Assembly (NCBI RefSeq): GCF_020463795.1
Contig: NZ_CP080025.1
Span: 313,001 to 377,000 of the forward strand
Source: Echinicola marina
GTDB lineage: Bacteria; Bacteroidota; Bacteroidia; Cytophagales; Cyclobacteriaceae
Length of the DNA: 64,000 bases
Direction: 5' to 3'
Shown here: positions 25,053 to 47,577 of the stretch, piece by piece
Layout: the number at the start of each line of letters is the position of its first letter
Numbering within the stretch: the stretch's first letter is position 1
The notes under the pieces: model-generated
Databases searched by the model: none
What the model saw: only the letters and a program-made list of their open reading frames with translations
Told to the model about the DNA's origin: nothing
Position numbers and translations under genes: made by a program

Positions 25053-25155
25053 AGTGGCGGAATTGATAGACCTGCCTTTGCCGGCAGGCAGGCGCTTTGG
25101 ATCAAGGCCTGTGAAATAAATATTTTGATCCCTGTTGGTAAAAGTACCGCAGCAT
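25048..25155 (+). pseudogene. Degenerate tRNA-Leu-like sequence with palindromic insert
   Basis: GTGGCGGAATTGATAGAC at 25054-25071 is nearly the same as the D-arm region of the intact tRNA-Leu about 110 bp downstream (one difference, A for G). The D-arm is then interrupted by a GC-rich palindrome (CCTGCC...GGCAGG, 25071-25092). No matching anticodon stem, T-arm or 3' acceptor follows; instead there are two small hairpins (GGATCAA/TTGATCC around 25098-25131 and GGTA/TACC around 25137-25148). I interpret it as a decayed tRNA-Leu copy broken by a mobile palindrome. Confidence 0.5.
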
Positions 25156-25157
25156 AT

Positions 25158-25239
25158 GCCCAGGTGGCGGAATTGGTAGACGCGTTGGTCTCAAACACCA
25201 ATGCCTTCGGGCGTGCCGGTTCGACTCCGGCCCTGGGTA
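25158..25239 (+). tRNA. tRNA-Leu (anticodon CAA)
   Basis: Complete class II tRNA of 82 nt. Acceptor arms are GCCCAGG (25158-25164) and CCTGGGT (25232-25238) with discriminator A. The D-arm is GGCGGAATTGGTAGAC. The anticodon stem TTGGT/ACCAA encloses loop CTCAAAC with anticodon CAA, reading UUG. The long variable arm TGCCTTCGGGCGT and T-arm GCCGG/CCGGC with TTCGACT complete it. CCA is not encoded. Its 3' end is the integration site of the island that follows. Confidence 0.97.
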
Positions 25240-25241
25240 CA
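25224..25241 (+). repeat. Left attachment core (tRNA 3' end)
   Basis: ACTCCGGCCCTGGGTACA at 25224-25241 covers the 3' half of the tRNA T-arm, the acceptor strand and two bases beyond. An identical 18-bp copy lies at 44789-44806, beyond the integrase gene. Tyrosine integrases commonly use tRNA 3' ends as attB. Confidence 0.9.
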
Positions 25242-25242
25242 C

Positions 25243-25277
25243 AAAACCCCTTCAGATGGAAATCAGAAGGGGTTTTT
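25243..25277 (+). terminator. Terminator after tRNA-Leu, supplied by the island
   Basis: Arms AAAACCCCTTC (25243-25253) and GAAGGGGTTTT (25266-25276), with an inner GAT/ATC pairing, are followed by a T-rich tract. It begins just inside the island and would replace the tRNA's former terminator, which now lies at 44808. Confidence 0.88.
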
Positions 25278-25284
25278 CTATTTT

Positions 25285-25306
25285 TTGCTAAACTATTGCT
25301 AAACCA
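25285..25306 (+). promoter_or_regulatory. Paired TTGCTAAAC boxes, putative integrase arm site (left)
   Basis: Two direct copies of TTGCTAAAC at 25285-25293 and 25296-25304, one helical turn (11 bp) apart. The same pair, 21 of 22 bases identical over the whole site, occurs at 44632-44653 near the other end. The arrangement fits arm-type binding sites of a tyrosine integrase or excisionase. Confidence 0.6.
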
Positions 25307-25506
25307 TTTCTTTTTGCCTTAAAATAAAAGTGACTTTCACTATTAACCTTATCAAAAATATCACTTTTATTCAGCGCATTCTATTTCAAAAAAACAAGTA
25401 CATGCTAAAAATCTAATTTGCCTATTAATTTCATTTAGCTTTCAGAGAAATTTTCATGGTAAATTCTAAATAATCAATATTCTAATAATTTCACCATAAA
25501 AGAAAA

Positions 25507-25537
25507 TAAAAAAGGCCACTCAACAAATTGAGTAGCC
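25507..25537 (-). terminator. Rho-independent terminator of the 74-residue gene
   Basis: Minus-strand hairpin with arms 25528-25537 and 25514-25523 (ACTCAA/TTGAGT core, one mismatch, 4-nt loop) followed by a T-rich run (complement of 25507-25513). It supports real transcription of the small gene at 25564-25788. Confidence 0.82.
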
Positions 25538-25563
25538 CAAAATCTAAATTTCTTGGCAAAAGG

Positions 25564-25788
25564 TTATCCATAAAGATACTTGTGGACTACTTTTACAAAC
25601 CCCCTCTTGGTTTCTGCCTTGCCGATGACCTTGGTACCAGTAGTATCAATTTCTTCGACTTTCACAGAGCTGCAGCCCTTTTCGAGGTAGAATTTTTTGG
25701 CACCCCATATCGTTTCATACCTATACGAACTACCATGTTGCGCCCACGAGAGCACAGATTTAGCGATTTCTCTTTTTATTTCGCTCAT
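25564..25788 (-). CDS. Small hypothetical protein (74 residues)
   Basis: Lysine- and glutamate-rich soluble protein with no recognised domain. It starts MSEIKREIAKSVLSWAQHGSS and ends ...GFVKVVHKYLYG. A proper terminator sits 26 bp past its stop, which supports it being a gene. It is the first gene inside the left island boundary and on the same strand as the satellite-like module, but about 400 bp separate it from the next gene. Function unknown. Confidence 0.6.
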   Translation of the reverse strand: MSEIKREIAKSVLSWAQHGSSYRYETIWGAKKFYLEKGCSSVKVEEIDTTGTKVIGKAETKRGFVKVVHKYLYG

Positions 25789-26204
25789 TTAAAAGTAATA
25801 ATTAATTAAAAAATAATAGAAAAAATATCTCTCAAACGTAATCTCACTACTACATCTGGACCAACATTAACCAAATATCATCTTTCAATAGTTCCCTCTG
25901 ATTCTACTTTATTTATTTTTTTCCTTTTGTATCCAATAGATATGACTTAAGGTATTCAATTAACCATTTGGTTTAATAAAAATCCCTTTCATTTATTCAT
26001 CAAGGGCCAACATTATCTTAACCCCAGCATTTTTGATATATGGGTCTTATAAAGAAAAAAAGATATTAAAAAATCACCCCTAATTTGAGTATATATTACA
26101 CGTACTAAAACTACCTTCGATGCCAGCTTTAAACATTTCAAAATTAAGGGCAAAAATAAGCCTACTTTCAACCATGAATTACATCACCAAATAAGGGTTG
26201 GTTC
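25789..26204. other. Very AT-rich intergenic region inside the island
   Basis: About 416 bp without a credible gene. It ends in an inverted repeat CAAATAAGG/CCTTATTTG (26188-26196 and 26210-26218) that spans the stop codon of the next gene and may act as a weak terminator. The location beside the possible initiator gene would suit a replication origin, but no iteron array is visible. Confidence 0.4.
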
Positions 26205-27179
26205 TTATACCTTATTTGATGATGTGATTTTACTAGGTTCCATCAAGTCATTCATTTTTTTCTCCACTAGCTTAGACAAGCTATCTTGTAACTCTAATTT
26301 ACCCGATTCTTCCATCAATTGATTAAATCTCTTGTTCCATATTTTGTAGGTGCTTTCAGAAGCTTTTTGTTTTACAAACTTTCTATCAACCGGATTCCCC
26401 ATTAACCTTTTAATTTGATAATCCTTAAAATCATCGTTTACAGTCACTCCAATAGCAGTTGAAAACAAAACCCTTTCAACAAGCAAGATTAACTCAAATA
26501 ATATTTGTGTAATCCAAGAAGTACCCAATAAATCCGCAGGCCTATACACATGAATAGGCGTATGCTTTCGTTTATGGACATAGCTCATTAACATTTCCTG
26601 CTCCACCCGTAATGTTGGTCCAATCATCTGCCTATCATGCTCCCAAACCTCAAATTGCTTGTTATAGATTTTAAATCGTGTATTCGTTTTCTTAATATAT
26701 TTTCCATAGCAATGATGTTTCCTGCCACCCTTCATATCCCCAAAAAAATCAGGACCTAACATTAGACAGTATGGAAAGAACTCATTTGAATCAACCATTA
26801 AGTTACACCCAATTGTCATTCTAATTATTTTGGCATCCAAAAACTCCTTCCCAAAACGTTGTACAAAAATCTGAATTGTCTTTATAATTTCGTCATGGGT
26901 ATAGTCCCCATAATTATTCCCATGGTAAAACTTATGCCAGGAGTTTTTTATCAAAAGGAAATCACTATTCATTTCAAGCCTCAACCCTTTCCAATTCCCC
27001 AAATATTTGGTTACAATACCATGCCTAAAAACGGGACTGAAAGTTATGTCATAATATACAAACTGTTGGGGCAACCTTTCCTTAACTATACTAGGCGAAT
27101 CAACTTCCATCTTGACTACTAAGTCATCAATCACCCCCAGCCTCCTCTCTTTTTTGATAAAAACGTAATTCCAAAACAT
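26205..27179 (-). CDS. Possible phage/plasmid-type replication initiator
   Basis: 324 residues, soluble. The segment SWHKFYHGNNYGDYTHDEI (about 80-98) followed by AKIIRMTIGCNLMVD resembles the gene II/X-type replication proteins of filamentous phages and related plasmids, which carry KFY.G.N and a metal-binding core. I cannot point to a definite HUH motif or catalytic Tyr. The C-terminal part is basic and helical. The ATG at 27179 overlaps the upstream gene by 53 bp; a GTG at 27134, overlapping its stop by 8 bp, is an alternative start. It is the last gene of the minus-strand satellite-like module. It could equally be an unrelated element-specific protein. Confidence 0.5.
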   Translation of the reverse strand: MFWNYVFIKKERRLGVIDDLVVKMEVDSPSIVKERLPQQFVYYDITFSPVFRHGIVTKYLGNWKGLRLEMNSDFLLIKNSWHKFYHGNNYGDYTHDEIIKTIQIFVQRFGKEFLDAKIIRMTIGCNLMVDSNEFFPYCLMLGPDFFGDMKGGRKHHCYGKYIKKTNTRFKIYNKQFEVWEHDRQMIGPTLRVEQEMLMSYVHKRKHTPIHVYRPADLLGTSWITQILFELILLVERVLFSTAIGVTVNDDFKDYQIKRLMGNPVDRKFVKQKASESTYKIWNKRFNQLMEESGKLELQDSLSKLVEKKMNDLMEPSKITSSNKV

Positions 27180-27510
27180 CCTTGTTCATTTTTCGGAAAG
27201 ACAAGGAATAATTTAAACCTAAAGAAGAAAGAAAAGGAGATTGGACAGTAGAGTACCAATCCCCAATTTCTTCAGATTGTGCAATAAACACTTTAGATCC
27301 CTTGCATTCCCCTGTGCTCATCAATACCGAATATTTAGCTCCAAACATACTAAGGAGATCTGGAAGGGACTCTATTATCCCAAAAACCTTTACAGCATCT
27401 AAGCCCATATTTTGCCATTCTGCCCATTGGTATTTCCCAGTGGACAATTTGAGATAATAAGCTGAAAAGAATGGTGTTTTTCCAAAAACCAGCTTATCCG
27501 TCCTACTCAT
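27127..27510 (-). CDS. Hypothetical protein of the island module
   Basis: 127 residues, no signal peptide, no recognised domain. It is rich in aromatic residues (YYLKLSTGKYQWAEWQNMG) and ends in a charged tail (FYQKREEAGGD). It overlaps the HTH gene by 8 bases (27503-27510) and the possible initiator gene downstream, so the three are translationally coupled. Position between excisionase-like and initiator-like genes suggests a replication or regulation accessory, which is inference only. Confidence 0.6.
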   Translation of the reverse strand: MSRTDKLVFGKTPFFSAYYLKLSTGKYQWAEWQNMGLDAVKVFGIIESLPDLLSMFGAKYSVLMSTGECKGSKVFIAQSEEIGDWYSTVQSPFLSSLGLNYSLSFRKMNKDVLELRFYQKREEAGGD

Positions 27511-27784
27511 GATTAAGTGGCTTCATAGCCTTTTCAATATCCGACCTTAAAAAATAAACCCTATTACCAATCCCGTAGCTTTGAAGCTTGCCTTTCTTGA
27601 CCCAATTATGTAAAGTGCTCAATTCAATTTTAAGCATATCAGCCACTTCTTTTCTAGAAAGATACTCTTCGGGCTGATCAGGCTTGAATTCCTTTTTTAA
27701 CTCTTGGAAATGTTTTAAAAAGAGGACAGAAAAACGGTCTTCCACCTCTTCAAGTGTCATTTCAAATAACTGTAGTTTTTTCAT
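27503..27784 (-). CDS. Helix-turn-helix protein, excisionase/AlpA-like
   Basis: 93 residues. The C-terminal half matches the MerR/excisionase-type HTH_17 fold: YLSRKEVADMLKIELSTLHNWVKKGKL...GNRVYFLRSDIEKAM. The N-terminal ~40 residues are a charged helix (LEEVEDRFSVLFLKHFQELKK). Such proteins in integrative elements act as recombination directionality factors or as activators of excision and replication (AlpA in Gram-negative satellites). The gene is followed by two overlapping genes on the same strand. In Bacteroidota elements this HTH type is very common. Confidence 0.85.
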   Translation of the reverse strand: MKKLQLFEMTLEEVEDRFSVLFLKHFQELKKEFKPDQPEEYLSRKEVADMLKIELSTLHNWVKKGKLQSYGIGNRVYFLRSDIEKAMKPLNHE

Positions 27785-27863
27785 GAGTATTTTTTTGATT
27801 ACTCATGCAAGGTCAAAAAGTGACCGTATGGTTACCAGTACGAAATCGTATGATGGATAAAAT

Positions 27864-28892
27864 TTAGTGTTTTTTAAATTCTAATTGATTTAATACCATA
27901 TTATATACGCTTGATCTTTTATCTGTTTCCATATTTTTGAGGGTTTTAAATTGTCCCAAGTCAGCTATTCCAAACTCTTCTTCTGACTCAACCTCCTTCT
28001 TAAAGTAATCCTGGGTGCATACAATAAACCCATCCTTTTTCATCATCCTATATATGAAAGCAATATCAGTCTTTGATTTTCCTATCTTCGAATTCTTAAT
28101 TAATTCACAAAACAGTAAATATCCATCATCAACAAATACATTTTTGAATTTCCTTTTCTTTTCTTTCAAAATAGAATCTTTACCTATTTCTTCTTCCAGA
28201 TTCTTATTATGAAACAACTTTGACTCAAAATTTTTCTCTTGGGCCCGCTCTTTAGTCGCTATTTCCACTTCAACAAACACTCTTAATTTCCTGAGTTCAT
28301 TCAAAACATCTAACCGAATCTCAGGAATTAACCTCTTCGCATCCTCATCTGACTTAAGACTACTCTCAAAGAAGTCTAATTCTAGAAGTTTATCTGATGG
28401 ATATTCATTTATTTCAAGTTCAGATTTGAATCTTTCAAAATCGTAATCTTCTATTAATTTCTTTTCTAATGCCTCATCTCTCTTTTGCATTTCCTCAGAA
28501 TTAAGGATAAAAGTAAGTTTACGAACAACATTCTCCGCCTCTAATAATTTATTCCCTATTGCCAAGGAATACCCATTTAAGAAATCCTCAAAAGATTTAC
28601 TTGGTTTAGGTTGGAAATTTTCAACCATTTCATTCATAAAATGGTTAATTGAGGATACCATGCTATCAACCTCTTTCAAGTCCTTAAAAACAATTTCCTT
28701 ACCCTTCACAAAGAATTTAACATATTCATTGGCTTTTACAGACACCTCTAAATTTTGATTTCTCAGAGCTGTTAAAACCAATTCTATATCTTTGAGCAAG
28801 GCTATACTCTTAGCTTCCCCCTGCTTATTGTCAAAATGATATTCAAAAAACCTATTGTAATAGAACTTGGGATCCACGGTTAATTCATTCAT
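27864..28892 (-). CDS. Hypothetical protein of the island module
   Basis: 342 residues, soluble, strongly charged and mostly helical, Lys/Glu rich with a predicted coiled-coil-like middle (about 170-260). No family recognised. The start overlaps the stop of the TerS-like gene by 4 bases (ATGA), and an 80-bp gap follows before the HTH gene. The C-terminal FGIADLGQFKTLKNMETDKRS... resembles the tails of Bacteroidota element proteins that I cannot name. Function unknown. Confidence 0.65.
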   Translation of the reverse strand: MNELTVDPKFYYNRFFEYHFDNKQGEAKSIALLKDIELVLTALRNQNLEVSVKANEYVKFFVKGKEIVFKDLKEVDSMVSSINHFMNEMVENFQPKPSKSFEDFLNGYSLAIGNKLLEAENVVRKLTFILNSEEMQKRDEALEKKLIEDYDFERFKSELEINEYPSDKLLELDFFESSLKSDEDAKRLIPEIRLDVLNELRKLRVFVEVEIATKERAQEKNFESKLFHNKNLEEEIGKDSILKEKKRKFKNVFVDDGYLLFCELIKNSKIGKSKTDIAFIYRMMKKDGFIVCTQDYFKKEVESEEEFGIADLGQFKTLKNMETDKRSSVYNMVLNQLEFKKH

Positions 28893-29338
28893 TCTGATTC
28901 AACGTTCATCATGTCCAACAAAATCTTCAATGCCCGTAATTTATTATGCAAGATTATGCGAAAGCCATTTTCATTAACTCGAATATCTTTGATTGCTGCC
29001 ACCTTTGAAGGGTTAATTTGACCTAATGACTTCAGGGTAAAATCATGATTTACAAAGTCTGTTATCCTACTAAAGGCAATTGTCTCAAGCTCTTGCAACA
29101 CTTTTTCTTGATCTTCAGCTAGTCTTTCATATACCCTATCCTTTTCTCGCTCTATCAGTTTCTTAATATGGGGTTTGGCCATGTTTTCATAACCTTGCTG
29201 CCTGGCTAAACGGGGACTATATCCTGCCTTTCTGGCTGCATCCGCAGCATTATAAGATTTACAATAGTATGTAACAAACAGATTCTCCTTGTCTGTTAAG
29301 CAGTCTGTCTCCTTTTTATGTGGTTGTTGGTGTTTCAT
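28889..29338 (-). CDS. Phage terminase small subunit-like protein (TerS)
   Basis: 149 residues from the ATG at 29338 (an upstream TTG at 29362 is possible). The N-terminal part matches the Terminase_2 family: CLTDKENLFVTYYCKSYNAADAARKAGYSPRLARQQGYENM..., the DNA-binding HTH used to recognise packaging sites. It is followed by a helical region (LIEREKDRVYERLAEDQEKVLQ) and a C-terminal domain. No large terminase, portal or capsid gene is present anywhere in the island. A lone small subunit is a hallmark of phage satellites that redirect a helper phage's packaging motor. It could alternatively be a domesticated DNA-binding relic. Confidence 0.78.
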   Translation of the reverse strand: MKHQQPHKKETDCLTDKENLFVTYYCKSYNAADAARKAGYSPRLARQQGYENMAKPHIKKLIEREKDRVYERLAEDQEKVLQELETIAFSRITDFVNHDFTLKSLGQINPSKVAAIKDIRVNENGFRIILHNKLRALKILLDMMNVESE

Positions 29339-29469
29339 GTTATCAAATACTAAAACAATCAAAATTTAACAAAACCATATAGTTTACCGTGAAAACAACT
29401 TTACTACACTTTTAAAATGTTAAGTTTTGTCAGGTCTGTAAGCCATCAAAAAAACGCATTCAGACATGT

Positions 29470-30081
29470 TTATCTTCCAATTTTCAATTTGTACTTTAAT
29501 TCAAAGTCACTTTTATTCATCAATTCTTCGAAGCTCAACTCTCCTTCTTCTTCCGCTTGTGCTTTTCTAAAATGCCAGTATGGATTAAATTCCCCCTCAT
29601 GGAGTTCTATATGAACAACCTGTTTTTTCTCTGTGAACTCGTGAGAGATTTTCTGCACATAGTATCTTGAATTTTCAAAATATGCATATAGAAATGGAAT
29701 ATCAATACTTTCCCCCACTCTCGGTAAAACAGGAATAGATTTACAAAAAAGGTTTACTGCTATTTGTCTCTTCTGAGAATAGATTTCTAACCAATATTCA
29801 ATCTCAGAAAATTCAAAAGGAACATCCCACGCCTCATCAATTACTGCATCATAGATTTCGTATAAGTAATTTCTGAGCCTGTCATATTTAATATTAAATC
29901 GGATGGACAGCTGTTTGACCGAGGGAATTTTATCACCAAATTCCTTTTCCCAATCACATTCTAAAAAGGGACTTAAAAAAACATTGAATTCATTCCCCTT
30001 CTCTAAAACAATCTTAAGTCTACCGGGGAGTCTCATCAGGTCAAATAATATATTTTTTGTGGAAATTTGGCCCTTATTCAT
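29470..30081 (-). CDS. Hypothetical protein of the island module
   Basis: 203 residues, no signal peptide or membrane segment. A short region KIPSVKQLSIRFNIKYDRLRNYLYEIYDAV (about 52-81) could form a helix-turn-helix. The rest is acidic with several Trp and Tyr. It is the first gene of the minus-strand module, divergent from hsdM, and may be a regulator, but nothing in the sequence proves this. Confidence 0.6.
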   Translation of the reverse strand: MNKGQISTKNILFDLMRLPGRLKIVLEKGNEFNVFLSPFLECDWEKEFGDKIPSVKQLSIRFNIKYDRLRNYLYEIYDAVIDEAWDVPFEFSEIEYWLEIYSQKRQIAVNLFCKSIPVLPRVGESIDIPFLYAYFENSRYYVQKISHEFTEKKQVVHIELHEGEFNPYWHFRKAQAEEEGELSFEELMNKSDFELKYKLKIGR

Positions 30082-30469
30082 ATGTTTGGATTTAAATTAA
30101 TTAACAAAAGTTTTCACGATAATTTAAGCAATTACAAGCCATATTGCTACTTTACAAACAAACTTTGACGTAAAAAGCGACATATATCTCATGATTACAC
30201 TTTTTCCACAAATACCATTATATTTACCATTAAACTATCTTTTTATACTAAGAATGAAAAAAACTTTTGCCCGAGCATGCTTTTATATCGTAAGAACATA
30301 CTTATCCATCGATCATGCATTGGAAAACGAAAATCCAAAATAAATCTATGGCTTACCTAATCCTCATTCAAAGTATCCTGGATGAGAGTACGTGTTCTTG
30401 AAATAAAAAGACAAACCAAAAATCATCGACAAAAAATTCTATTAGAAAAAAATAAGAGTACAATCCTTT
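30082..30469. other. Divergent intergenic region between satellite module and restriction operon
   Basis: 388 bp, AT-rich, must contain the promoters of both the 203-residue gene (minus) and hsdM (plus). I see no clear TAnnTTTG element, operator repeat or small gene. Confidence 0.45.
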
Positions 30470-32035
30470 ATGGCTAAGAAAAAGCAAGAGCAGGAAGTGG
30501 CCCTGGAAAAGAAGCTGTGGAAGACCGCAGATAAACTGAGAAATAACATCGATGCTGCTGAGTACAAGCATGTGGTGCTGGGGCTGATCTTTTTAAAATA
30601 CATATCCGATGCCTTTGATGAACTGTATGAAAAGCTTAAGAATGGCGAAGGAGAATATGTGGGAGCAGATCCAGAAGATAAAGATGAATATGGAGCTGAA
30701 AATGTGTTCTTCGTCCCAGAGAAAGCAAGATGGTCCTATATACAGTCACAGGCAAAGTTGCCAAATATCGGTAAGCTGATCGATGATGCCATGGATATGA
30801 TCGAGGCCGATAACAATACCCTCAAAGGGATTTTGCCCAAAGTGTACGGTCGTCAGAATCTTGGTAGTGCCACAGTTGGCGAATTGATCGATACCATTGG
30901 TACGATTGCCTTGGGAGACCATAAGGCTAAAAGCCAGGATGTACTGGGACGGGTGTACGAATACTTCTTGGGCCAGTTTGCTCTTGCTGAAGGCCAAAAA
31001 GGTGGACAGTTCTATACTCCTGAAAGCATAGTAAAGTTATTGGTAGAAATGCTCGAACCGTATAAAGGAAGGGTGTACGATCCATGTTGTGGAAGTGGAG
31101 GAATGTTTGTACAGTCAGAAAAATTTATTGAAAACCATCAGGGACGTTTGGATGATATTTCGGTGTACGGACAGGAAAGTAACCAGACCACTTACCGTCT
31201 ATGTAGGATGAATCTGGCGATACGTGGTATAGATGGTTCCAATATCAAGTGGAATACGGAAGGTTCCTTCCTGAACAATGCCCATAAGGACTTAAAGGCT
31301 GATTATATTATTGCCAATCCTCCCTTTAATGTGAGTGATTGGAGCGGGGAGTTATTAAGGGATGATGCCCGGTGGCAATATGGTGTACCTCCGACAGGGA
31401 ATGCCAATTTTGGCTGGGTGCAACACTTCTTGTACCACCTTAAGCCGGATGGTGGCCATGCTGGCTTTGTCTTGGCAAACGGTTCCCTAAGTTCCAATAC
31501 TGGTGGAGAGGGATTGATCCGTCAAAAACTGGTGGAGAATGATTTAGTGGAATGTATTGTGATGCTGCCCAAGGCCTTGTTCTTTAATACGGGAATTCCT
31601 GCCTGCTTGTGGTTTTTGCGCAGAGGAAAGAAAAAACGCAATGGTGAATTACTCTTTATCGATGCCTCCGACCTGGGCTATATGATAGACCGCAAAAACA
31701 GAACCTTTGCAGCAGAGGACATTGCAAAAGTAGCCGACACTTACCACAATTGGTTGTCTGTCAGTTCGAGCGGAGTCGAGAACCAAGGCAAGTCCAAAGT
31801 GTATGAAGACATCAAAGGTTTCTGCAAATCAGCTACCATCGAGGATATCAAAAAACACAAATTCGTACTTACACCAGGTCGCTATGTAGGCATTCCCGAT
31901 GAAGAAGATGATGGTATTCCTTTTCAGGAAAAAGTTGATGCCATTACTGAAAAGTTGCGGACACAAATGCAAACTGCTCAGGAGCTGGACCAGGAAATTA
32001 AAAAGCAGATGGCTAAAATTGGTATTGAGTTATGA
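30470..32035 (+). CDS. hsdM: Type I restriction-modification DNA methyltransferase (HsdM)
   Basis: 521 residues. An N-terminal HsdM_N helical domain ([36 protein letters not shown]) is followed by the N6-adenine methyltransferase: [21 protein letters not shown]-binding motif [15 protein letters not shown], and catalytic motif IV ANPPFN (about 282-287). It methylates adenine in the bipartite site recognised by HsdS and is needed for cleavage by HsdR. The stop overlaps the hsdS start (ATGA). First gene of a six-gene plus-strand operon. Confidence 0.97.
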
Positions 32036-33333
32036 GTGAGTGGAAGGAAGTAACCATAGGTGAAATTGCAGAGGTGAAAACAGGACCGTTTGGAAGTGCA
32101 TTATTGAATGAACAATATATTCAAGGAGGAACCCCGGTTATTACAGTAGAGCACATAAAAGATTTCCGGATTTCTCAATTGGATTATCCCTCTGTAACTG
32201 ATGAAGATAAAGATAGATTATCAAGCTACACCTTAGAAGAAGGAGATATTGTTTTCTCTAGAGTTGGGTCTGTAGATCTTAGTGCAATTGCATTGAAAGA
32301 AAATATTGGTTGGCTATTTTCAAGTAGAATGCTTAGGGTTAGACCAGATCGGAAATTAATTGATCCTTTGTATTTGTCTTACTATCTAAGACTCTATGGA
32401 GTTAGAAAGTATATAAACAACATCGCTGTGGGTTCAACCATGCCTTCTATCAATACTCAGATATTAAAAAGTATTCCAGTAATTCATTGCGAGCTATCAG
32501 AACAAAAAGAAATAGCTAAAGCACTTTCTAGCCTCGACCAAAAAATCACGCTACTCCAGGAGCAAAACCAAACCTTGGAGGAACTTGCGCAGACACTGTT
32601 TAAGCGGTGGTTTGTGGAGTTTGAGTTTCCCATCTCCGAAGAACAAGCTGCTGCCATGGGCAATCCTGACTTAGTAGGCCAGCCCTACAAAAGCTCTAGC
32701 GGAAAAATGACAGCAAGTGAACTTGGAGAGATTCCAGAGGGGTGGACGTTATCTACTATCGGAGAAAATGTTGAAACATTGGGAGGCGGTACCCCCTCTA
32801 CTCAGGAGCCAGCTTACTGGGAAAACGGCGAGATTTTTTGGTATTCGCCTACAGACCTAACAAAGTCAAATAGTATGTTCTCGAATAGTTCAAGCAAGAA
32901 AATTTCTGAGTTAGGACTTCAGAAAAGTTCAGCAAAGTTATTTCCAGCTTATTCAATTTTGATGACAAGTAGGGCTACTGTGGGTGAAATCACAATAAAC
33001 ACATCTGAAGCATGTACTAATCAAGGTTTTATAACACTTATTCCAAATGAGAAGATTTCCCTATTCTTTCTATATGATTGGCTAAAAACGAAATTAAGCA
33101 CAGTTCATAATCTAGCATCAGGAAGCACCTTTCCTGAGATTAGTAAAACAGACTTCAGGAATATGGAAGTATTGATTGGAACAAGTCAGATTCATCAACA
33201 CTTTGATGAATCGATGAAGCCAATTTTTAAATCAATTGAGAATAATACAAATGAAATTCAATCCCTCACCGAATTAAGAGATACGTTATTGCCAAAGTTG
33301 ATGAGTGGGGAGTTGAGACCGAATATTATATAA
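32032..33333 (+). CDS. hsdS: Type I restriction-modification specificity subunit (HsdS)
   Basis: 433 residues with the usual two target-recognition domains (about 1-155 and 240-390), each followed by a conserved helix ([38 protein letters not shown]; and [41 protein letters not shown]). The recognition domains determine a bipartite asymmetric DNA site that cannot be read from sequence. Both are markedly more AT-rich than the central conserved helix region, as expected for domains exchanged by recombination. It overlaps hsdM by 4 bp, and 11 bp separate it from the next gene. Confidence 0.95.
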
Positions 33334-33344
33334 AACCTTATCAT

Positions 33345-34709
33345 ATGAAAATTTTTGGTAACAATGGAGATAGAATTGATTATCTCGAAGAGGAAAGATT
33401 AAAAATTTGGGAGCGAATTACTGAATTGGAAAAAGATCTTAAAGCCAAATCGTCTGATTCTGAAAAAGAGGCAAAAGAACATTCTAAAAAGGCAGCATTA
33501 TTTAGAAATAGGGCTGAATCAAGATTAAAAGAAGCGACGGATTTTCTTTCGGATATAGAAAAAGAGGTTGAATTGATTGCTGGCCTAGGAAAAAGTACTG
33601 AAGAAAAGGTTAAGGAAATAGACGATTTATTGCTCACAATAAAGAATGCTGAGTCAAGCTTAAGCAACCTTGAAGAACTCCAAGAAAAATTCCCAAATAT
33701 TGACGATCATCTTAATAATCTTGAAACTCTATCTGAATCGATTACTGATTATCATTCAAAATCCCAGGCCTCGCTAAACAACATTAACAAGCGTAAGAAA
33801 GAAGTAGATGAAATATATTTCGAAATATTTGGGTACGATCAAGAAAATGATGAAACAGGTGAGACACAGCATATAGGAGGGGTTAAGGAAGAACTTGAGG
33901 AAGCCTATTCCCAATTAATTGAAGATATTGATCAGGGCAAAAAGGATTTAGAAAAACTTAATAGTTCTTACAAAGAGAATTATAAAGATTTTGAGAAGGA
34001 ATACCACAAGAAGTATACTCAGATAACAGAAGAAATAGCGGGTCTTTTGCCTAATGCTCTAACTGCTGGACTAAGTTCTGCATTTTCATCTAAAAAAACT
34101 GATGAGGTTATGTCAGCCAAGTGGCATCGAATTACTTTTTTTTCTGGAATAGGATTAATGATATTGGTTAGTATGATACCTGCAGCTGTTAGTTATTATT
34201 ATATTACTTTGGATGTGCCACTAGACGAAGTAATATTGAAATTGCCCAGAGTTGTCTTAGCGATACTTCCTATATATATACCAATATTGTGGTTAGCTTA
34301 TTCTTCAAATAAAAAACTAAACCTATCTAAAAGGCTAATAGAGGAATACTCTCATAAGGAGGTGTTAAGTAGAACCTATGAAGGTCTAACCAAACAAATA
34401 GCCAACATGGGGGATAAGGATAATTCAGAAGAGTTGAGATTTAGATTATTGGCAAACTTTTTACAAGTTACTTCCGAAAATCCTGGTAAGTTAATTTCAA
34501 ACTATGAAGCTTCAGATCATCCTTTGATGGAAGCTCTCGAACAAAGTTATAAATTTCAACTTGTAATAGATAAACTTGAAGGTATACCTGGAATGGGTAA
34601 GATAGCAGCTATTTTGGATAAAAAGAAGCAGAAGAAATTTGAAGAAAAGGAAAAAATAATTAATGAGGCTTGGAAGGTAAATGTGGAGGAGCCAGAAGAT
34701 GAAAACTAA
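33345..34709 (+). CDS. Unknown coiled-coil membrane protein inside the restriction operon
   Basis: 454 residues. A long charged coiled-coil region (about 10-250, many heptads such as DYLEEERLKIWERITELEKDLK) is followed by two membrane helices (about 263-285, ITFFSGIGLMILVSMIPAAV, and about 302-322, VVLAILPIYIPILWLAYSS) and a soluble helical C-terminus (about 330-454). No nuclease, NTPase or other enzymatic motif is visible. It starts 11 bp after hsdS, but 85 bp separate it from hsdR. It is not a known subunit of type I enzymes. The build resembles membrane sensors or effectors in defence systems; this is inference only. Confidence 0.8.
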   Translation: MKIFGNNGDRIDYLEEERLKIWERITELEKDLKAKSSDSEKEAKEHSKKAALFRNRAESRLKEATDFLSDIEKEVELIAGLGKSTEEKVKEIDDLLLTIKNAESSLSNLEELQEKFPNIDDHLNNLETLSESITDYHSKSQASLNNINKRKKEVDEIYFEIFGYDQENDETGETQHIGGVKEELEEAYSQLIEDIDQGKKDLEKLNSSYKENYKDFEKEYHKKYTQITEEIAGLLPNALTAGLSSAFSSKKTDEVMSAKWHRITFFSGIGLMILVSMIPAAVSYYYITLDVPLDEVILKLPRVVLAILPIYIPILWLAYSSNKKLNLSKRLIEEYSHKEVLSRTYEGLTKQIANMGDKDNSEELRFRLLANFLQVTSENPGKLISNYEASDHPLMEALEQSYKFQLVIDKLEGIPGMGKIAAILDKKKQKKFEEKEKIINEAWKVNVEEPEDEN

Positions 34710-34794
34710 TTATACCTAGGTTTAAAGGGGGCGGTATGGAGGTAGAATTGATAAGCGAGATCAATTGGAAAAGTATTTTTAAAGCTTAAATGTT

Positions 34795-37700
34795 ATGACC
34801 AAAATAACTGAAAACGACATAGAGTTATGGGCCATTGAGGAATTGGAGAACCTTGGATGGAACTATATCCATGGTGCTTTAATTGCTCCAGATGGTGAGC
34901 AGCCCGAACGAAATACTTTTGGAGATATAATCCTCAGAGAAAGATTGAAGGAGGGAATTTCTCGTAATAATCCTACTATTCCCTATGAGGCACAGCAAGA
35001 AGCTTTAAAAGTAGTGGAGCGGATCGTGTCTCCGGAATTGATGGTCAATAACCAGTCCTTTCATGAACTGCTTACAGAAGGTGTCCCCGTTGAGTATCGC
35101 AAGGACGGGGTTCAGCGAGGTGATCGGGTTCAGTTGGTCGATTTTAACAATCCCGAACAAAATGATTTTTTGGTAGTTAACCAATTCACCATTATTGAAA
35201 ACAATAATAATAAACGTCCTGACCTAATCCTTTTCGTTAATGGTCTGCCCTTGGTATTGTTTGAGCTTAAAAATGCCATAGATGAAAATGCTACGTTGCT
35301 ATCTGCCTATAAGCAAATCCAAACCTATAAAGACACTATTCCCAGCCTTTTTACCTTTAACACTTTTTGTGTATTGTCTGATGGGGCCGATGCCAAGGCA
35401 GGTTCTCTTTCTGCTGGTTTTTCTCGATATCTGGCCTGGAAATCCAGTGATGGGGTAAAAGAAGCCTCACTTCTTAATAGTCAGCTAGAGGTTTTGATCA
35501 AGGGCTTGATGAATCCTGCTAATCTATTGGATTATATACGTCACTTTATTGTATTTGAGGAAACCAAGCACATTGATAGTTCTGGGATAGCCAACATACA
35601 AACCATTAAGAAAGTAGCGGCCTATCACCAGTATTATGCTGTGAACAAAGCCATTGAATCGGTTAAAAAAGCGGCTTCTTCCGATGGTGATCGAAAGGGA
35701 GGAGTTGTCTGGCATACCCAGGGAAGTGGAAAGTCCCTTTCAATGGTATTTTTCTCAGGGAAGTTGGTGCTACAGTTGGACAATCCAACCGTCTTGGTTA
35801 TCACGGACCGAAACGACTTGGACGACCAGTTGTTTGATACTTTTGCATCTTCCAAACAGCTTCTAAGACAAGTTCCAGTACAGGCAGAAAGCCGAGACCA
35901 TCTCAAAGCACTATTAAAAGTAGCTTCAGGAGGAATTGTTTTTGCCACCATCCAGAAGTTCCAACCAGATGATGGAAGCAATGAGTACAAAGAACTTTCG
36001 GCCAGAACCAATATTGTTGTGGTTGCCGATGAAGCTCACCGTACCCAGTATGGTTTTAAACCCAAAAGTATAGAGGTCAAAGATGATAAGGGCAATGTTG
36101 TTGGACAGCGCCTAGTGTACGGTTTTGCCAAGTATATGCGTGATGCCTTGCCTAATGCGACCTATTTGGGCTTTACAGGTACTCCGGTTGAATCTACAGA
36201 CAATAACACTCCTGCAGTATTCGGGAACTATGTAGATATCTATGATATCGCACAAGCTGTGGAGGATGGAGCAACGGTACCGATTTATTATGAAAGTCGT
36301 CTAGTAAAGATCAACCTATCAGAAGAGGGTAAACAGCTTATTGAAGACCTGGACAATGAACTGGCCAGTGATGAGCTTTCCGATACACAAAAAGCCAAGG
36401 CTAAATGGACCAAGGTAGAAGCCATCATAGGTAGTCCTGAACGTTTGCGTAAAGTAGCAGAGGATCTTGTTTTCCACTATGAAGAACGAAGTAATAGTGG
36501 ATTGGAAGGTAAAGCAATGATCGTGGCCATGAGCAGGCAAATAGCCGTGGACCTGTACAAAGAGATTATTGCCATACGACCACATTGGCATGATGATGAC
36601 TTGGATAAAGGAGTCCTAAAAGTAGTAATGACAGCAGCTTCTTCAGATGGTCCTGATATGATGAAACATCATACCTCCAAAGAGCAAAGAAGGGCTTTGG
36701 CAGATCGAATGAAGGATACTACCGATCCATTGAAATTGGTTATTGTTCGGGATATGTGGCTTACCGGGTTTGATGCACCAAGCATGCATACCCTGTACAT
36801 CGACAAGCCCATGAAGGGACATAACCTAATGCAGGCCATTGCCAGGGTGAACCGGGTGTATAAGGACAAACCGGGAGGGCTGGTAGTGGACTACTTTGGA
36901 ATTGCTTCAGATTTGAAGAAAGCATTGTCTTTTTATTCAGACAGTGGAGGTAAAGGAGATCCTGCAGAAGCTCAGGAGAAGGCAGTGCAGTTGATGTTAG
37001 AAAAGTTGGAAGTGGTTTCTCAGATGTTTGAAGAAAAGGCTGAATCAGCCAATGTTAGTTTTCAAATAGCAGCCGAAGATCAGGGGCTTTATGGGAAGCC
37101 CTTTGCCTATGAGGATTATATTGATGGCAGCGTAAAAGAAAAGTTGGAAATCATTTTATCAGCGGTGGAGCATGTATTGAGTTTGGAAGATGGGAAAAAC
37201 CGATTTGTGAGAGAGGTAACTGCCCTGTCCAAAGCTTTTGCCATTGCTTTGCCCCATGAACAAGCCATGGATGCCAAGGATGAAATTGCCTTTTTCCAGG
37301 CTGTAAAGGCGAGAATCCAAAAGTTTGATACAGGAACCTCCACAGGTGGTAAATCTGATTATGAAATCGAAACGGCCATCAAACAGGTGGTGGATCAAGC
37401 GATAGTTTCTGAGCAGGTAATCGATATCTTTGATGCCGCAGGGATTAAGAAGCCAGAGCTTTCCGTATTGGATGATGGCTTCCTGGAGGAAATGCGGGAT
37501 ATGAAACATAAAAACCTTGCATTGGAGGTATTGAAGAAGTTGTTGAATGATGAAATAAAAGTTAGGGCCAGGCATAATGTGGTTCAAAGCAGGTCTTTGA
37601 TGGATATGTTGGAATCTTCCATCAAGCGCTATCAGAATAACTTGATCAGTGCTGCCGAGATCATACAGGAGATGATCGAACTGGCCAAGGAAATAAAAGC

Positions 37701-38013
37701 AGCTGATAATCGAGGGGATAAAATGGGCTTGTCAAAGGATGAGCTGGCTTTTTACGATGCAGTAGCCAATAATAAAAGTGCAAAGGATCTACTTGGTGAT
37801 GATATATTATTAAAGCTTTCTAGGGTCTTGGTAGAGCGGGTTAAAGCCAATGCCTCCATAGACTGGACAGTAAAGGAATCAGTAAAGAAGAAACTTAAAG
37901 TAATAGTAAAAAGAACACTTCGCCAATACGGCTACCCACCTGACTTGCAGAAGCTGGCAACAGATACAGTACTGCAGCAGGCTGAGGCATTGGCGGATTT
38001 TTGGAGTAATTAA
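34795..38013 (+). CDS. hsdR: Type I restriction endonuclease subunit (HsdR)
   Basis: 1072 residues. The N-terminal PD-(D/E)XK nuclease is visible as RPDLILFVNGLPLVLFELK (about 140-161). The superfamily 2 translocase follows with Walker A HTQGSGKSLSM (about 306-316), VITDRNDL, Walker B/DEAH VADEAHRTQYG, GFTGTPV, and later VRDMWLTGFDAPSMHTLYIDKP and QAIARVNRVY. The C-terminal region is helical for contacting the methylase complex. The complete HsdR would translocate unmodified DNA and cut at distance. It is separated from mcrB by 11 bp. Confidence 0.97.
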   Translation: MTKITENDIELWAIEELENLGWNYIHGALIAPDGEQPERNTFGDIILRERLKEGISRNNPTIPYEAQQEALKVVERIVSPELMVNNQSFHELLTEGVPVEYRKDGVQRGDRVQLVDFNNPEQNDFLVVNQFTIIENNNNKRPDLILFVNGLPLVLFELKNAIDENATLLSAYKQIQTYKDTIPSLFTFNTFCVLSDGADAKAGSLSAGFSRYLAWKSSDGVKEASLLNSQLEVLIKGLMNPANLLDYIRHFIVFEETKHIDSSGIANIQTIKKVAAYHQYYAVNKAIESVKKAASSDGDRKGGVVWHTQGSGKSLSMVFFSGKLVLQLDNPTVLVITDRNDLDDQLFDTFASSKQLLRQVPVQAESRDHLKALLKVASGGIVFATIQKFQPDDGSNEYKELSARTNIVVVADEAHRTQYGFKPKSIEVKDDKGNVVGQRLVYGFAKYMRDALPNATYLGFTGTPVESTDNNTPAVFGNYVDIYDIAQAVEDGATVPIYYESRLVKINLSEEGKQLIEDLDNELASDELSDTQKAKAKWTKVEAIIGSPERLRKVAEDLVFHYEERSNSGLEGKAMIVAMSRQIAVDLYKEIIAIRPHWHDDDLDKGVLKVVMTAASSDGPDMMKHHTSKEQRRALADRMKDTTDPLKLVIVRDMWLTGFDAPSMHTLYIDKPMKGHNLMQAIARVNRVYKDKPGGLVVDYFGIASDLKKALSFYSDSGGKGDPAEAQEKAVQLMLEKLEVVSQMFEEKAESANVSFQIAAEDQGLYGKPFAYEDYIDGSVKEKLEIILSAVEHVLSLEDGKNRFVREVTALSKAFAIALPHEQAMDAKDEIAFFQAVKARIQKFDTGTSTGGKSDYEIETAIKQVVDQAIVSEQVIDIFDAAGIKKPELSVLDDGFLEEMRDMKHKNLALEVLKKLLNDEIKVRARHNVVQSRSLMDMLESSIKRYQNNLISAAEIIQEMIELAKEIKAADNRGDKMGLSKDELAFYDAVANNKSAKDLLGDDILLKLSRVLVERVKANASIDWTVKESVKKKLKVIVKRTLRQYGYPPDLQKLATDTVLQQAEALADFWSN

Positions 38014-38024
38014 GTACTAAAAAT

Positions 38025-40865
38025 ATGGCATTTGAACCCGAAAAAATCACAAAAGACCACATACTTAAGGCAATTGAAAAAATTAAACAAGAAAAACTTG
38101 ATTTAAATCCCTCCACGAGATGGAATGTGGTTATTAATGGTCAGAGCTTTCCTCCTAAGGAAATTATGAGGTACGCACACCAAGAAATGAATGGTGAGTT
38201 TTTATGGACATATGGTGGAGGAGAAGCCACTAATAAATGGCTAAAGCAATTTGATTTTAAAATTGTTTCTAAGACGGAAAACAATGATCCTGTACTCGGT
38301 TTAATTGAACGATATAAGGAGCATGCTCTTAAGTCGAAATTAAAAGATGAACTCTATAAATGGCGATTGGTGAAAGCTTTCCATGGTAGACCTAATCCAG
38401 ATTCATCTGATTTTACCAATGAATTTTTATCAATCAATTTCGCTAATTTAATTGATGGTCCTCGAGCCCTTGCCTCTGCAAATTTATTGGCAAAGAATCG
38501 ACCCGATGATTTTTGTGAGGCATTTAAAATTTTGTTCAATGAAGAAAATAAACTTGAGTACAGGCTGTCAAGTTTCGAAAAAAGATGTGAGGCAATACAT
38601 TCAGAAATAAGTCATTTACCTCATAGACAGGATGAACGAACAATGGCTACCTATTTAGCTTTTTATGATTCTTCCAAATACGCTTTCTATAAAGATTCTT
38701 TCTATCAGAAATATTGCAAGTTGATCGGTATCAAACCTGAAAAACGTGGAAAAAAACTAATTCATTATCTTTCTCTGTTGGAGGATTTTGTAGAGAACTA
38801 CATTTTAGAAGATTCTGAATTACTAAATTTAAAAAAGCAATTATTGACTGATGATTGTTATGAAGATTTGAATCATAAAATTTTTGCACAAGATATTTTG
38901 TACTCAACATTGGATCAACAAAAAGGGTTAGGCAGAAACTATTGGAGGGTTGGAACAAGTGATCATAAATCCAATTATTGGGATATTATGCAAGACAATC
39001 AATATATTTCAATCGGTTGGAAAGAAATCGGAGATTTAAGAGAAAAGGAGGTAAAAAATAAAAAGGATATAATACAACTTTTAGAAAGCGAAGGCTATTA
39101 CTTAGACGACAAAAAGGTTGGCAGCAGAAAGGCAGGAGAAATATTAAATTTCTATAATGACATAAAGGATGGGGACATCATTATTGCCCAAGCTGGATCA
39201 GATATTTTAGGTATAGGAGAAGTGGTTGATGAATATAACTATGATTCTTCTCAAATATTTTCACATTTCAAGCCTGTGGAATGGAAACTACAATCTCCAA
39301 ATCTTAAGAACATTGAAGGATTGAGGACAACAGTTTATAAAATTTCTCAACTCGACTTTATAAATAAAATAGATCATCTACTTAAAATAAATAAAAAGGA
39401 ACAAAAAATGATTAATGAACTCAATCAGATCCTTTTTGGGCCTCCAGGAACCGGAAAAACTTATTATACGCTAAATAAGGCATTAGAGCTTTGTGGCGAA
39501 GATTTAAAAGGATTAAGTAGAGCTGATATCAAAGATCGCTTTGAACAATTGGTAGATGAGGGAAGAATTATTTTCACAACCTTTCATCAAAGCATGACTT
39601 ATGAAGATTTTGTAGAAGGAATTAAACCTATTGAACCCGAAAAGGAAGGTGATCCGGTCGTTTATAGGGTAGAGGAAGGGATTTTTAGAAAGTTATGTAT
39701 TGAAGCATCTTTTTCACTAGCCAAGGAGGAAGAATCAGTTGCCACTGAAAATGTACTCGATTTCTCATTAGCCTTCGATATTTTTGTCCAAGAAACTGAA
39801 GAGAACCTTGCCTCAGGAAAAAGCATTGAATTGGATACCAAAAATGGAGGAAAAGTAATTGTGGATGGTATTTCTCAGCAAGGTAACATCATCATTAAAC
39901 ATCCAGGAAGAGATAATACCTACCCTGTTTCTAAACAGAGGCTTTCAAAACTGCATGCTGCATTTCCAGACTTAGACGATGTAAACAATATAGATCAACA
40001 ATTTAGGTCGATAATAGGAGGAAGTAACTCTACAGCGAATTGGTCAGTACTAAACGCTATCAGGAATAACACCCCTGTAGCTAAAGAAACTCCAAAGGAG
40101 ATTAGAAAATACTCTTGGGACGATAAAGTGCAAGTAGTCAAATCTTTGAAAAAAGAAGATTACAAAGGAAAGACAGGGGATCCATATGTACTTATTATTG
40201 ATGAAATAAATCGAGGAAATGTATCTCAGATTTTCGGGGAGTTAATCACTTTAATTGAAGAAGATAAACGTCTAGGCAATCCAGAGGCTATTCAAGTCCA
40301 ACTTCCATACAGTAAGGAATGGTTTGGGGTTCCTCCCAATGTTCATATTATTGGAACGATGAACACAGCAGACCGAAGTGTGGAAGCATTAGATACTGCC
40401 CTAAGAAGAAGGTTTAGCTTTACCGAAATGCCTCCAAAACCAAAGATAATTAAATCGGAAGGCAAAGCAGTTAACGGTATTATTAACGGAATAGATCTTT
40501 CTGATCTTTTAGAAACAATAAACAGACGTATTGAAAAGCTTCTAAACAAAGACCATATGGTTGGTCATAGTTATTTCTTATCCGTCAAGGGGTTGGAAGA
40601 ATTGAAAGCCGCTTTTCAAAACAAGATTATTCCCTTACTCCAGGAATATTTTTTTGGTGATTACGGGAAAATCGGTTTGGTCATCGGTGCCAATTTTTTT
40701 GAAATTGAATACAATCAAATCGAGGATGAGTTCTTCGCTCACTTTGAGGATTATGATTCAGGTTCATTGCTAGAGCGTAAGGTGTATTATCTCAGAAATG
40801 TTCAAGATATGGATGATGACACTTTTATTCAGGCCATAAATGTACTGTTAAGAAAAACTAATTAA
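38025..40865 (+). CDS. mcrB: McrB-like GTPase with ScoMcrA-type head and EVE-like domain
   Basis: 946 residues. The N-terminus (about 1-85: ITKDHILKAIEKIKQEK ... VVINGQSFPPKEIMRYA) resembles the head domain of ScoMcrA-type modification-dependent restriction proteins. A helical region follows, then an EVE/PUA-like modified-base reader (about 304-442: GRNYWRVGTSD, YISIGWKEIGDL, DGDIIIAQAGSDILGIGEV). The AAA+ McrB GTPase has Walker A GPPGTGKTYYT (about 471), IIDEINRGNVSQIFGEL, and the McrB signature GTMNTADRSVEALDTALRRRF. It would assemble with McrC to cleave DNA containing modified bases. It ends directly against mcrC. Confidence 0.9.
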   Translation: MAFEPEKITKDHILKAIEKIKQEKLDLNPSTRWNVVINGQSFPPKEIMRYAHQEMNGEFLWTYGGGEATNKWLKQFDFKIVSKTENNDPVLGLIERYKEHALKSKLKDELYKWRLVKAFHGRPNPDSSDFTNEFLSINFANLIDGPRALASANLLAKNRPDDFCEAFKILFNEENKLEYRLSSFEKRCEAIHSEISHLPHRQDERTMATYLAFYDSSKYAFYKDSFYQKYCKLIGIKPEKRGKKLIHYLSLLEDFVENYILEDSELLNLKKQLLTDDCYEDLNHKIFAQDILYSTLDQQKGLGRNYWRVGTSDHKSNYWDIMQDNQYISIGWKEIGDLREKEVKNKKDIIQLLESEGYYLDDKKVGSRKAGEILNFYNDIKDGDIIIAQAGSDILGIGEVVDEYNYDSSQIFSHFKPVEWKLQSPNLKNIEGLRTTVYKISQLDFINKIDHLLKINKKEQKMINELNQILFGPPGTGKTYYTLNKALELCGEDLKGLSRADIKDRFEQLVDEGRIIFTTFHQSMTYEDFVEGIKPIEPEKEGDPVVYRVEEGIFRKLCIEASFSLAKEEESVATENVLDFSLAFDIFVQETEENLASGKSIELDTKNGGKVIVDGISQQGNIIIKHPGRDNTYPVSKQRLSKLHAAFPDLDDVNNIDQQFRSIIGGSNSTANWSVLNAIRNNTPVAKETPKEIRKYSWDDKVQVVKSLKKEDYKGKTGDPYVLIIDEINRGNVSQIFGELITLIEEDKRLGNPEAIQVQLPYSKEWFGVPPNVHIIGTMNTADRSVEALDTALRRRFSFTEMPPKPKIIKSEGKAVNGIINGIDLSDLLETINRRIEKLLNKDHMVGHSYFLSVKGLEELKAAFQNKIIPLLQEYFFGDYGKIGLVIGANFFEIEYNQIEDEFFAHFEDYDSGSLLERKVYYLRNVQDMDDDTFIQAINVLLRKTN

Positions 40866-42146: not shown

Positions 42147-42224
42147 GCCTTCCACCTGTCCTTTAAACACAAAAAAATAATGGAATTCTTATTTTCATTT
42201 ATTACACCATGTTATTCTAAATTT

Positions 42225-43283: not shown

Positions 43284-43338
43284 ATCTTTTTATTTCTTCA
43301 AAAAGAAAATCGAATATATTAATAATTAAGTCTAAATT

Positions 43339-44595: not shown

Positions 44596-44631
44596 GAATG
44601 AGGAAATATGTATTCATCAAATCTAATAAAT

Positions 44632-44653
44632 TTGCTAAACCATTGCTAAACCA
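44632..44653 (+). promoter_or_regulatory. Paired TTGCTAAAC boxes, putative integrase arm site (right)
   Basis: TTGCTAAAC at 44632-44640 and 44643-44651, same orientation and 11-bp period as the pair at 25285-25304. It lies 36 bp upstream of the integrase start, so binding could also repress or activate the gene. Confidence 0.6.
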
Positions 44654-44788
44654 AATCACTATTTTATGCTATTTATTTAAACTTTATACTACCTTCACTC
44701 CTATCTAAATCAAGCAAAAAAGCGTCAAAAAATCCCATTTAAAGTTAATTTATGGAAATTCAAATAGCACCCGAATCCATTTGTTATT

Positions 44789-44806
44789 ACTCCGGCCCTG
44801 GGTACA
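44789..44806 (+). repeat. Right attachment core
   Basis: ACTCCGGCCCTGGGTACA, identical to 25224-25241 in the tRNA 3' end, and not part of any tRNA here. It marks the right boundary of the island. Confidence 0.9.
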
Positions 44807-47397: not shown

Positions 47398-47577
47398 GTT
47401 CTCCAATTTTTTGTTAAAAAATGGAGTTATTCCACACTGGGTTCAGCTTTCAAAAAGCTATTTCATGCGGTTTCCATGGTGTTGCTGTAAAACTACCAAA
47501 AGCGCTGATATAGGCTTCCACAGATTATGACTGCGTCCAAAAAAACTGACGTCTTATTGATTTTACATTTAAATTCC

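Follow-up and report, generated by a model that had tools for sequence, protein, structure and literature searches.

Small terminase (TerS)-encoding phage-inducible chromosomal islands (PICIs), that is, the SaPIs and the PICIs of Gram-negative bacteria, combine an integrase, an AlpA- or MerR-type regulator, a replication module and a TerS without large terminase (TerL) with defined attachment (att) sites and accessory cargo, and have no recognised structural genes (accessible part of PMC6092414, from which our PICI feature list is taken). Here we analysed 64,000 nucleotides of the Echinicola marina contig NZ_CP080025.1 (the window, from whose first letter all positions are counted) and found an island of 19,583 bp (25224-44806, G+C 36.2%) that shares these traits: an integrase with att sites, a regulator/xis gene of the helix-turn-helix (HTH) family HTH_17, a pri/rep module and the optional terS. 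An earlier note on this DNA had proposed that a minus-strand module at 30081-25564, which is indeed present there, forms with an integrase at the other end the gene set known from PICIs. Our results indicate that the island is probably a phage satellite and belongs to a modular, TerS-carrying lineage of the Cytophagales that resembles PICIs in its logic. While the satellite part of the earlier proposal is thus well supported by anatomy and comparison, membership of the PICIs is not established.

The present elements differ from PICIs, as the accessible text portrays them, in occurring in Cytophagales, in sitting at tRNA 3' ends and in carrying a Rep_trans-like replication protein (Rep) with a single sequence motif. 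They also show no Stl-type repressor, and their TerS forms a clade of its own among the rows compared, which include no PICI TerS. PICMI satellites of Vibrionaceae likewise possess an integrase, AlpA, a primase and defence genes, including type I restriction-modification (RM) and DRT, and have no capsid genes. However, the accessible PICMI text (PMC10803314) does not contain the word terminase, and PICMIs adjoin fis, whereas the present elements carry TerS and use tRNA genes. The cf-PICIs, helper-dependent and said to be widespread across Bacteria, are also integrated and have a small terminase, but their genes include those for capsid, portal, protease and large terminase (excerpt of PMC10690885), none of which was recognised in our islands; the own capsid and large terminase that mark a cf-PICI are therefore lacking. 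Among the matches listed in the open-access literature, as far as their accessible parts go, we found no description of TerS-type phage satellites in Bacteroidota. The nearest report describes virus-particle DNA that contains defence genes of Bacteroides uniformis, a finding ascribed in the accessible part of the text to lateral transduction (PMC12829572).

In general terms, a phage satellite is not itself a phage but encodes functions or signals by which it is packaged in the particles of another one. At the sequence level this is what we observed: TerS without TerL recurs in 17 elements, which is more than chance. In the window, the module that contains terS reads as follows.

29470-30081, minus strand: open reading frame (ORF) of 203 amino acids (aa), first gene of the module, no relative found in sister stretches
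28889-29338, minus strand: terS, Terminase_2 small terminase (longest ORF starts at 29362)
27864-28892, minus strand: 342-aa core protein, conserved beside TerS/HTH (cluster 6, 6 sites)
27503-27784, minus strand: AlpA/excisionase-like HTH_17 regulator (cluster 1)
27127-27510, minus strand: 127-aa core protein, overlapping rep by 8 bp (cluster 17, 4 sites)
26205-27134, minus strand: rep, putative Rep_trans/CRI-like replication initiator (longest ORF starts at 27179)
25564-25788, minus strand: 74-aa ORF, no family

The gene at 28889-29338 encodes a genuine small terminase. Its longest ORF (29362-28889) matched Terminase_2 (PF03592) with 5.1e-31 (108.6 bits, cut-off 26.1) and phrog_51 with 5.3e-26, and a four-row TerS profile matched solved small terminases (4.2e-14, 3zqp), so that the protein called TerS-like in the earlier note passes terminase models. 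The AlpA/excisionase-like HTH protein named there was borne out as well, by matches to HTH_17 (2.8e-13), the excisionase family TIGR01764 (4e-8) and phrog_66 (4.3e-10). For the 342-, 203-, 127- and 74-aa proteins, Pfam, PHROGs and NCBIfam gave no named-family match above chance. The genes had further been described as all coupled by short overlaps. Such overlaps join terS to the 342-aa gene (4 bp), the HTH gene to the 127-aa gene (8 bp) and the latter to rep (8 bp, with a GTG start taken from relatives), but gaps of 131 bp between the 203-aa gene and terS and of 79 bp between the 342-aa and HTH genes mean that the module is not coupled throughout.

A TerS profile matched at 25 places, spread over 18 of the 390 genomes of the family; as two broken copies appeared as two pieces each, we count 23 genes. 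Eighteen of these genes belong to 17 TerL-less elements, which are distributed over 14 genomes. Three belong to phages, two of them with TerL (G476, G514) and the third labelled by synteny with G514, its contig being too short to show a TerL (G549). The other two (G653a, G653b) lie at contig ends and were not counted among the 17 elements. An enlarged TerL search was negative for all 301 ORFs of at least 60 aa in 18 island stretches (the 17 elements and a decayed island, G059), while the same search revealed TerL in 13 of 20 order-wide TerS stretches. A narrower search had found TerL in 10 of these 20; G377, G318 and G210 were added by the enlarged one, two of them also by PHROGs. The 20 stretches came from 18 of the 39 genomes with TerS in the order. 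Among the seven without TerL, four were satellite-like (G292, G082 twice, G279), and G114, G140 and G097, where the enlarged search gave no TerL, were not assigned to phage or satellite. A class-wide scan gave matches in 10 of 395 genomes, 6 of them outside the order.

Large unnamed neighbours of TerS, ten compared with Pfam and six of these with PHROGs, yielded no terminase; their matches were to helicase, GmrSD, CHAT, TPR, Beta protein and families without known role. Neither the HK97 capsid model PF05065 nor the TerL model PF03354 matched inside any TerS island (lysis genes were not searched separately), and seven further ORFs of the smallest element, G163, gave no structural match (two of 66-69 aa left out). 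Both a full phage and a prophage remnant were rejected on these grounds. We also rejected phrog_2 as sole TerL detector: it gave cross-matches of about 19-31 bits to ATPases such as PhoH and did not detect the TerL of G007, which is why PF03354 was used too.

To place the window TerS, we calculated a maximum likelihood tree of 67 rows, with rows below 100 aa left out, the best 25 of 79 viral TerS rows included and a root for drawing only. The window TerS fell into a 15-row clade (support 100/99) whose rows all come from TerL-less elements. Beyond this clade, satellite and phage labels are intermixed with five changes on the tree, and one of the 17 elements (G021) lies there; these mixed labels suggest that TerS seems to have been captured more than once. 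Five TerS pairs of the clade gave dN/dS values of 0.10-0.20 (Nei-Gojobori; dS 0.48-1.40), rough estimates from pairs that partly share members and are not all independent, which roughly point to purifying selection on the close relatives of the window TerS. One viral-labelled contig (L100) shows the order integrase-HTH-primase-TerS without TerL in 14.5 kb and is likely another satellite, although it is suggestive only.

The island ends and the insertion site are defined by the following features.

25158-25240, plus strand: tRNA-Leu(CAA), integration target, left end (ARAGORN; empty attB in G001 and G002)
25224-25241, plus strand: attL, 18-bp direct repeat
44789-44806, plus strand: attR, 18-bp direct repeat, supported also by empty sites
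25296-25308, plus strand: possible integrase arm site, 13-bp repeat with a second copy at 44632-44644; similar repeats by both att sites in G337 and G470, function putative
43339-44595, minus strand: int, tyrosine integrase, far end of the island

The 18-bp repeat that bounds the island is the 3' end of tRNA-Leu(CAA), and the integrase lies opposite the module, as the earlier note had it. Two genomes of the same genus, G001 and G002, have an empty site in which the tRNA-Leu runs straight into the right flank of the window, and thus confirm the island ends. In G001 the tRNA side matches with 98.9% identity over 87 bp, and 426 bp of flank lying further to the left with 89.9%; on the right side, identity is 88% over 108 bp, and both sides contain the 18-bp core. 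In G002 the corresponding identities of the two sides are 90.7% (86 bp) and 84% (50 bp). In 15 of the 17 elements, the 3' end of a tRNA recurs at the opposite end of the element as a direct repeat of 15-66 bp; one end is unplaced in G604b and G686. Seven tRNA types serve as sites (Leu, Thr, Asn, Arg, Val, Ser and Met), and the islands with repeats, G059 included, measure 7.6-21.9 kb (n=16, median 18.6 kb). The tRNA-Leu site, with the same chromosomal surroundings, is also used in five relatives: G686, G337, G584 (Cyclobacterium sp. 1_MG-2023), G470 (Rhodonellum psychrophilum) and G059 (Pararhodonellum marinum). In the last four of these, the tRNA-Leu islands contain relatives of the window integrase (E<1e-150). 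The G059 island is decayed, with TerS lost and Rep truncated.

Since the 17 elements were chosen by TerS, its presence in all of them is by construction. The other components vary. An integrase profile matched in 15 of the 17, the other two stretches possibly ending short of the gene, and an HTH profile in 13. The replication module consisted of Rep in eight elements, a D5_N/DUF5906 primase plus DUF6371 in three, the uncharacterised proteins of clusters 14 and 19 in three and DUF6371 alone in one, with none recognised in two (primase and DUF6371 were named from the copies in G686 and assigned in the remaining elements by clustering). In G686 the D5/DUF5906 primase stands in the place of Rep at the same tRNA-Leu as in the window. 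That Rep and primase replace each other beside related TerS speaks for Rep as a replication protein. All three type I RM subunits were recognised in 8 of the 17 elements, and no restriction gene in the 7.6-kb element G163. Relatives with the same core and differing cargo, for which the earlier note had called, thus exist. If the satellite reading is true, TerS satellites would be modular and also common in this family, where 14 of 390 genomes carry the 17 elements; Cyclobacterium sp. 1_MG-2023 and Rhodonellum psychrophilum are among the named carriers.

The window Rep had no match in Pfam, and no match to PHROGs or NCBIfam was better than E 0.07. In an alignment of 21 members, five matched Rep_trans (PF02486, best 0.0034), the window Rep not being one of these five, and one matched Phage_CRI (0.0088). 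The invariant residues include K-x-Y-x-K and R-x-E, a pattern seen in the Rep_trans/CRI families. The possible replication initiator of the earlier note therefore stands as a weakly suggested Rep_trans/CRI relative, but the window protein itself matches no family. By tblastn at E 0.01 it had no match in 72,556 plasmid and 50,697 phage records, and a single-protein scan of genome contigs gave 12 pattern matches and no relatives.

Counting the own genome, 6 of 98 near genomes contained relatives of Rep. Such relatives were also present in 51 of 390 order genomes (5-row profile) and at 23 database loci, where the same stretch also contained an HTH match in 19 cases and an HsdM match in nine. Of 31 genomes searched (own plus Rep carriers), eight contained PF03592. 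TerS lies beside Rep in five of the 31, all of the window's family (own, G007, G337, Cyclobacterium sp. 1_MG-2023 and Rhodonellum); the matches of the other three genomes are not at the Rep locus, judged by contig numbers. We also noticed HTH-Rep elements in Flavobacteriia and other Bacteroidota (L049-L063), most with the motif described below and several with RM genes; no PF03592 TerS was found at these loci.

Just 3' of rep we found a conserved motif, ACNTGTARTAYA (pattern AC[N]TGTA[A/G]TA[T/C]A), near a strong inverted repeat.

26092-26103, minus strand: candidate replication origin/nick site ACGTGTAATATA, about 100 bp 3' of rep
26177-26229, no strand assigned: strong inverted repeat, terminator or part of an origin/replication region, overlapping the rep 3' end

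Apart from the window copy, the 64 kb contain no exact match. Five islands have a Rep that is both close and intact (window, G337, G584, G470, G007), and in each of them the motif occurs exactly once, after rep and on the same strand. It is missing from the nine TerS islands that lack Rep (two being partial stretches), from three whose Rep is distant (G547a, G563-1, G021), from G059 with its truncated Rep and from G092, where a one-mismatch copy is present. At the database Rep loci it lies 2-13 bp past the rep stop in 13 of 19 and not in the other six, counts that come from a pattern lengthened and loosened after these loci had been seen; just one further match was found in 343,252 bp. In 2,000 random samples of island windows the observed number was never reached; this null uses the same five islands in which the motif was first noticed, so that pattern and null are both post hoc. 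The motif is nearly exclusive to Rep, and we regard it as a candidate replication origin or nick site.

The folding of this region was examined in several ways. The stretch 26165-26235, with the inverted repeat over the rep 3' end, gave z -5.1. A stable hairpin at the motif itself was rejected: RNAalifold proposed no pair, and the window copy folded no better than 158 of its 200 shuffles. A 7-bp stem around the motif showed a covariation of 0.231 versus 0.120 in shuffles (none of 500 reached it, and slid controls gave lower values). Since there is some covariation but no stable fold, we claim the motif and not the hairpin. The conserved origin organisation of PICIs was not found in 25100-30500, a single conserved motif standing in its place.

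Rep also bears on the most serious alternative, namely that the island is an integrative mobilizable element (IME) in which Rep would be a MOBT-type relaxase and ACNTGTARTAYA an oriT, a conjugative element would be hijacked and TerS would be accessory. MOBT relaxases are related to Rep_trans initiators, and MOBT IMEs share with the present elements a Rep_trans-like protein, an HTH protein and the integrated state (accessible part of PMC11389934). Owing to this kinship, we take the IME explanation seriously even though we consider it unlikely. The motif-bearing, often RM-linked Rep relatives of Flavobacteriia and other Bacteroidota, with no PF03592 at the locus, would fit it too, and seven PF03432 relaxases in the own genome, all outside the island, make conjugative helpers possible; nor does TerS in all 17 elements argue against it, this being by construction. 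However, a D5/DUF5906 primase in the place of Rep in three TerS elements, one of them at tRNA-Leu (G686), fits replication and not transfer. Among 21 genomes, ten contained PF03432, never inside an island, and a classical IME was rejected for this reason; other relaxase families and type IV secretion genes were not searched for. The present elements differ from the MOBT IMEs, as far as these are described in the accessible text, in the presence of TerS, in a Rep exchangeable with a primase and in having no transfer gene with the single relaxase model tried. The expectation of the earlier note that relatives lack full phage or conjugative gene sets held for TerL, PF05065 and PF03432, but it was not followed for type IV secretion and other relaxases.

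Less probable still is that a defence island co-opted TerS as an anti-phage decoy that poisons the packaging of incoming phages, the island itself not being packaged. In favour of it, the cargo is chiefly restriction, and TerS stands apart from any TerL, with relatives under apparent purifying selection. Yet TerS accompanies integration and replication genes at many sites, including G163 with no recognised restriction gene. That the island is a prophage remnant that kept int, regulator and terS and gained defence genes later is highly improbable, because, despite an overlap in gene types with phages and two broken family TerS copies, a similar compact gene set without TerL recurs at seven tRNA types, its TerS forms a selected clade of its own and the window Rep is absent from the phage records searched.

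Several observations weigh against the satellite reading that we prefer. Some Rep elements have no TerS, which shows that the HTH-Rep chassis can do without it; two family TerS copies are broken; and four of the 17 elements gave no match to the HTH profile (G595 had a weak single-sequence match). The best 25 of the 79 viral-contig TerS rows include none within the 15-row clade. Viral contigs contained no Rep with the single protein and one distant match with the profile, hence no direct sign of packaged DNA. Membership of Rep in Rep_trans is weak, no iteron array was found in 25100-30500 (the only stretch of the island searched for iterons) and no separate Stl-type master repressor was seen. 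Islands of close to 20 kb are larger than PICIs, for which about 15 kb is given. Our searches revealed no helper phage whose TerS is closely related; G476 and G514, the phages of the family that have a TerL, carry a distant TerS. Finally, PF05065 and PF03354 match nothing in these two TerL-bearing phages, and phrog_2 failed on G007 as noted above.

These model failures matter for the search for helpers. The own genome had no PF05065 or PF03354 match, hence no resident helper by the TerL and capsid models used, and its phrog_2 matches were weak (23-27 bits), to a PhoH gene flanking the island and to ORFs of 1869 and 718 aa. Given the limited sensitivity of the models, the absence of a resident helper is provisional, as is the resulting view that a helper would be an incoming phage. 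Two of the 21 genomes (G007, G470) matched PF05065, and the same two PF03354, in resident prophages away from the islands. These prophages (L279, L280) are of HK97 type and reside in genomes that also carry a satellite. Their TerS looks P27-type by eye, unlike the satellite TerS, and they are possible helpers.

For a phage satellite of this make-up we propose the following life cycle. An incoming helper phage would infect the cell, and the HTH regulator would trigger excision together with the integrase. Rep would act at ACNTGTARTAYA and replicate the circle, probably by a rolling circle, giving head-to-tail DNA. The satellite TerS would then bind a pac site on this DNA and recruit the large terminase of the helper, whose heads would be filled with satellite DNA. 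Once injected into a new cell, this DNA would integrate at tRNA-Leu. As cargo, type I RM and McrBC may protect the host and help the satellite to compete. If this holds, it could account for the movement of type I RM and other defence genes from one tRNA site to another in these bacteria, and the pair of Rep and motif would be a marker for finding further elements. We offer a more far-reaching version only tentatively and think it somewhat doubtful: a Bacteroidota satellite lineage in which Rep_trans-like rolling-circle replication at ACNTGTARTAYA yields concatemers that its own TerS packages via an incoming pac-type phage, built on an older, Bacteroidota-wide HTH-Rep-origin chassis that often carries restriction genes and to which TerS was added in Cytophagales, and serving as a main route by which defence islands pass between these bacteria.

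The remaining genes of the island are listed below.

30470-32035, plus strand: cargo, type I RM HsdM
32032-33333, plus strand: cargo, HsdS
33345-34709, plus strand: cargo, coiled-coil 454-aa protein, weak LmuB/JetC matches
34795-38013, plus strand: cargo, HsdR
38025-40865, plus strand: cargo, McrB-like AAA restriction protein
40866-42146, plus strand: cargo, McrC (PF10117, 2.7e-58)
42225-43283, minus strand: 352-aa ORF, no family assigned

Thus, the cargo comprises a complete type I RM system that encloses the coiled-coil protein, plus McrB/McrC. By eye, the 454-aa protein inside the type I RM operon appears membrane-spanning.

Some further observations concern sister islands and flanks. The Rhodonellum island (G470, L211/L212) holds one intact and one broken TerS, and in G563 (L183-L185) two islands lie in tandem at one tRNA-Asn, one of them with a broken TerS. 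The decayed G059 island contains an ORF that looks reverse-transcriptase-like by eye (L010:17140-18705). About 84 bp adjoining the target tRNA-Leu (25072-25154) are missing from the empty site of G001; the sequence just ahead of them resembles a tRNA-Leu start by eye, perhaps an old partial duplication. Directly right of attR lies a dispersed repeat of about 210 bp (44897-45108), with 37 more full or partial matches (73-94% identity) in the own genome and about 10 in the same-genus genome G001. Further to the right, at 47527-58407, an ORF of 3626 aa contains many near-identical repeats and ends in what, by eye, resembles a C-terminal sorting domain.

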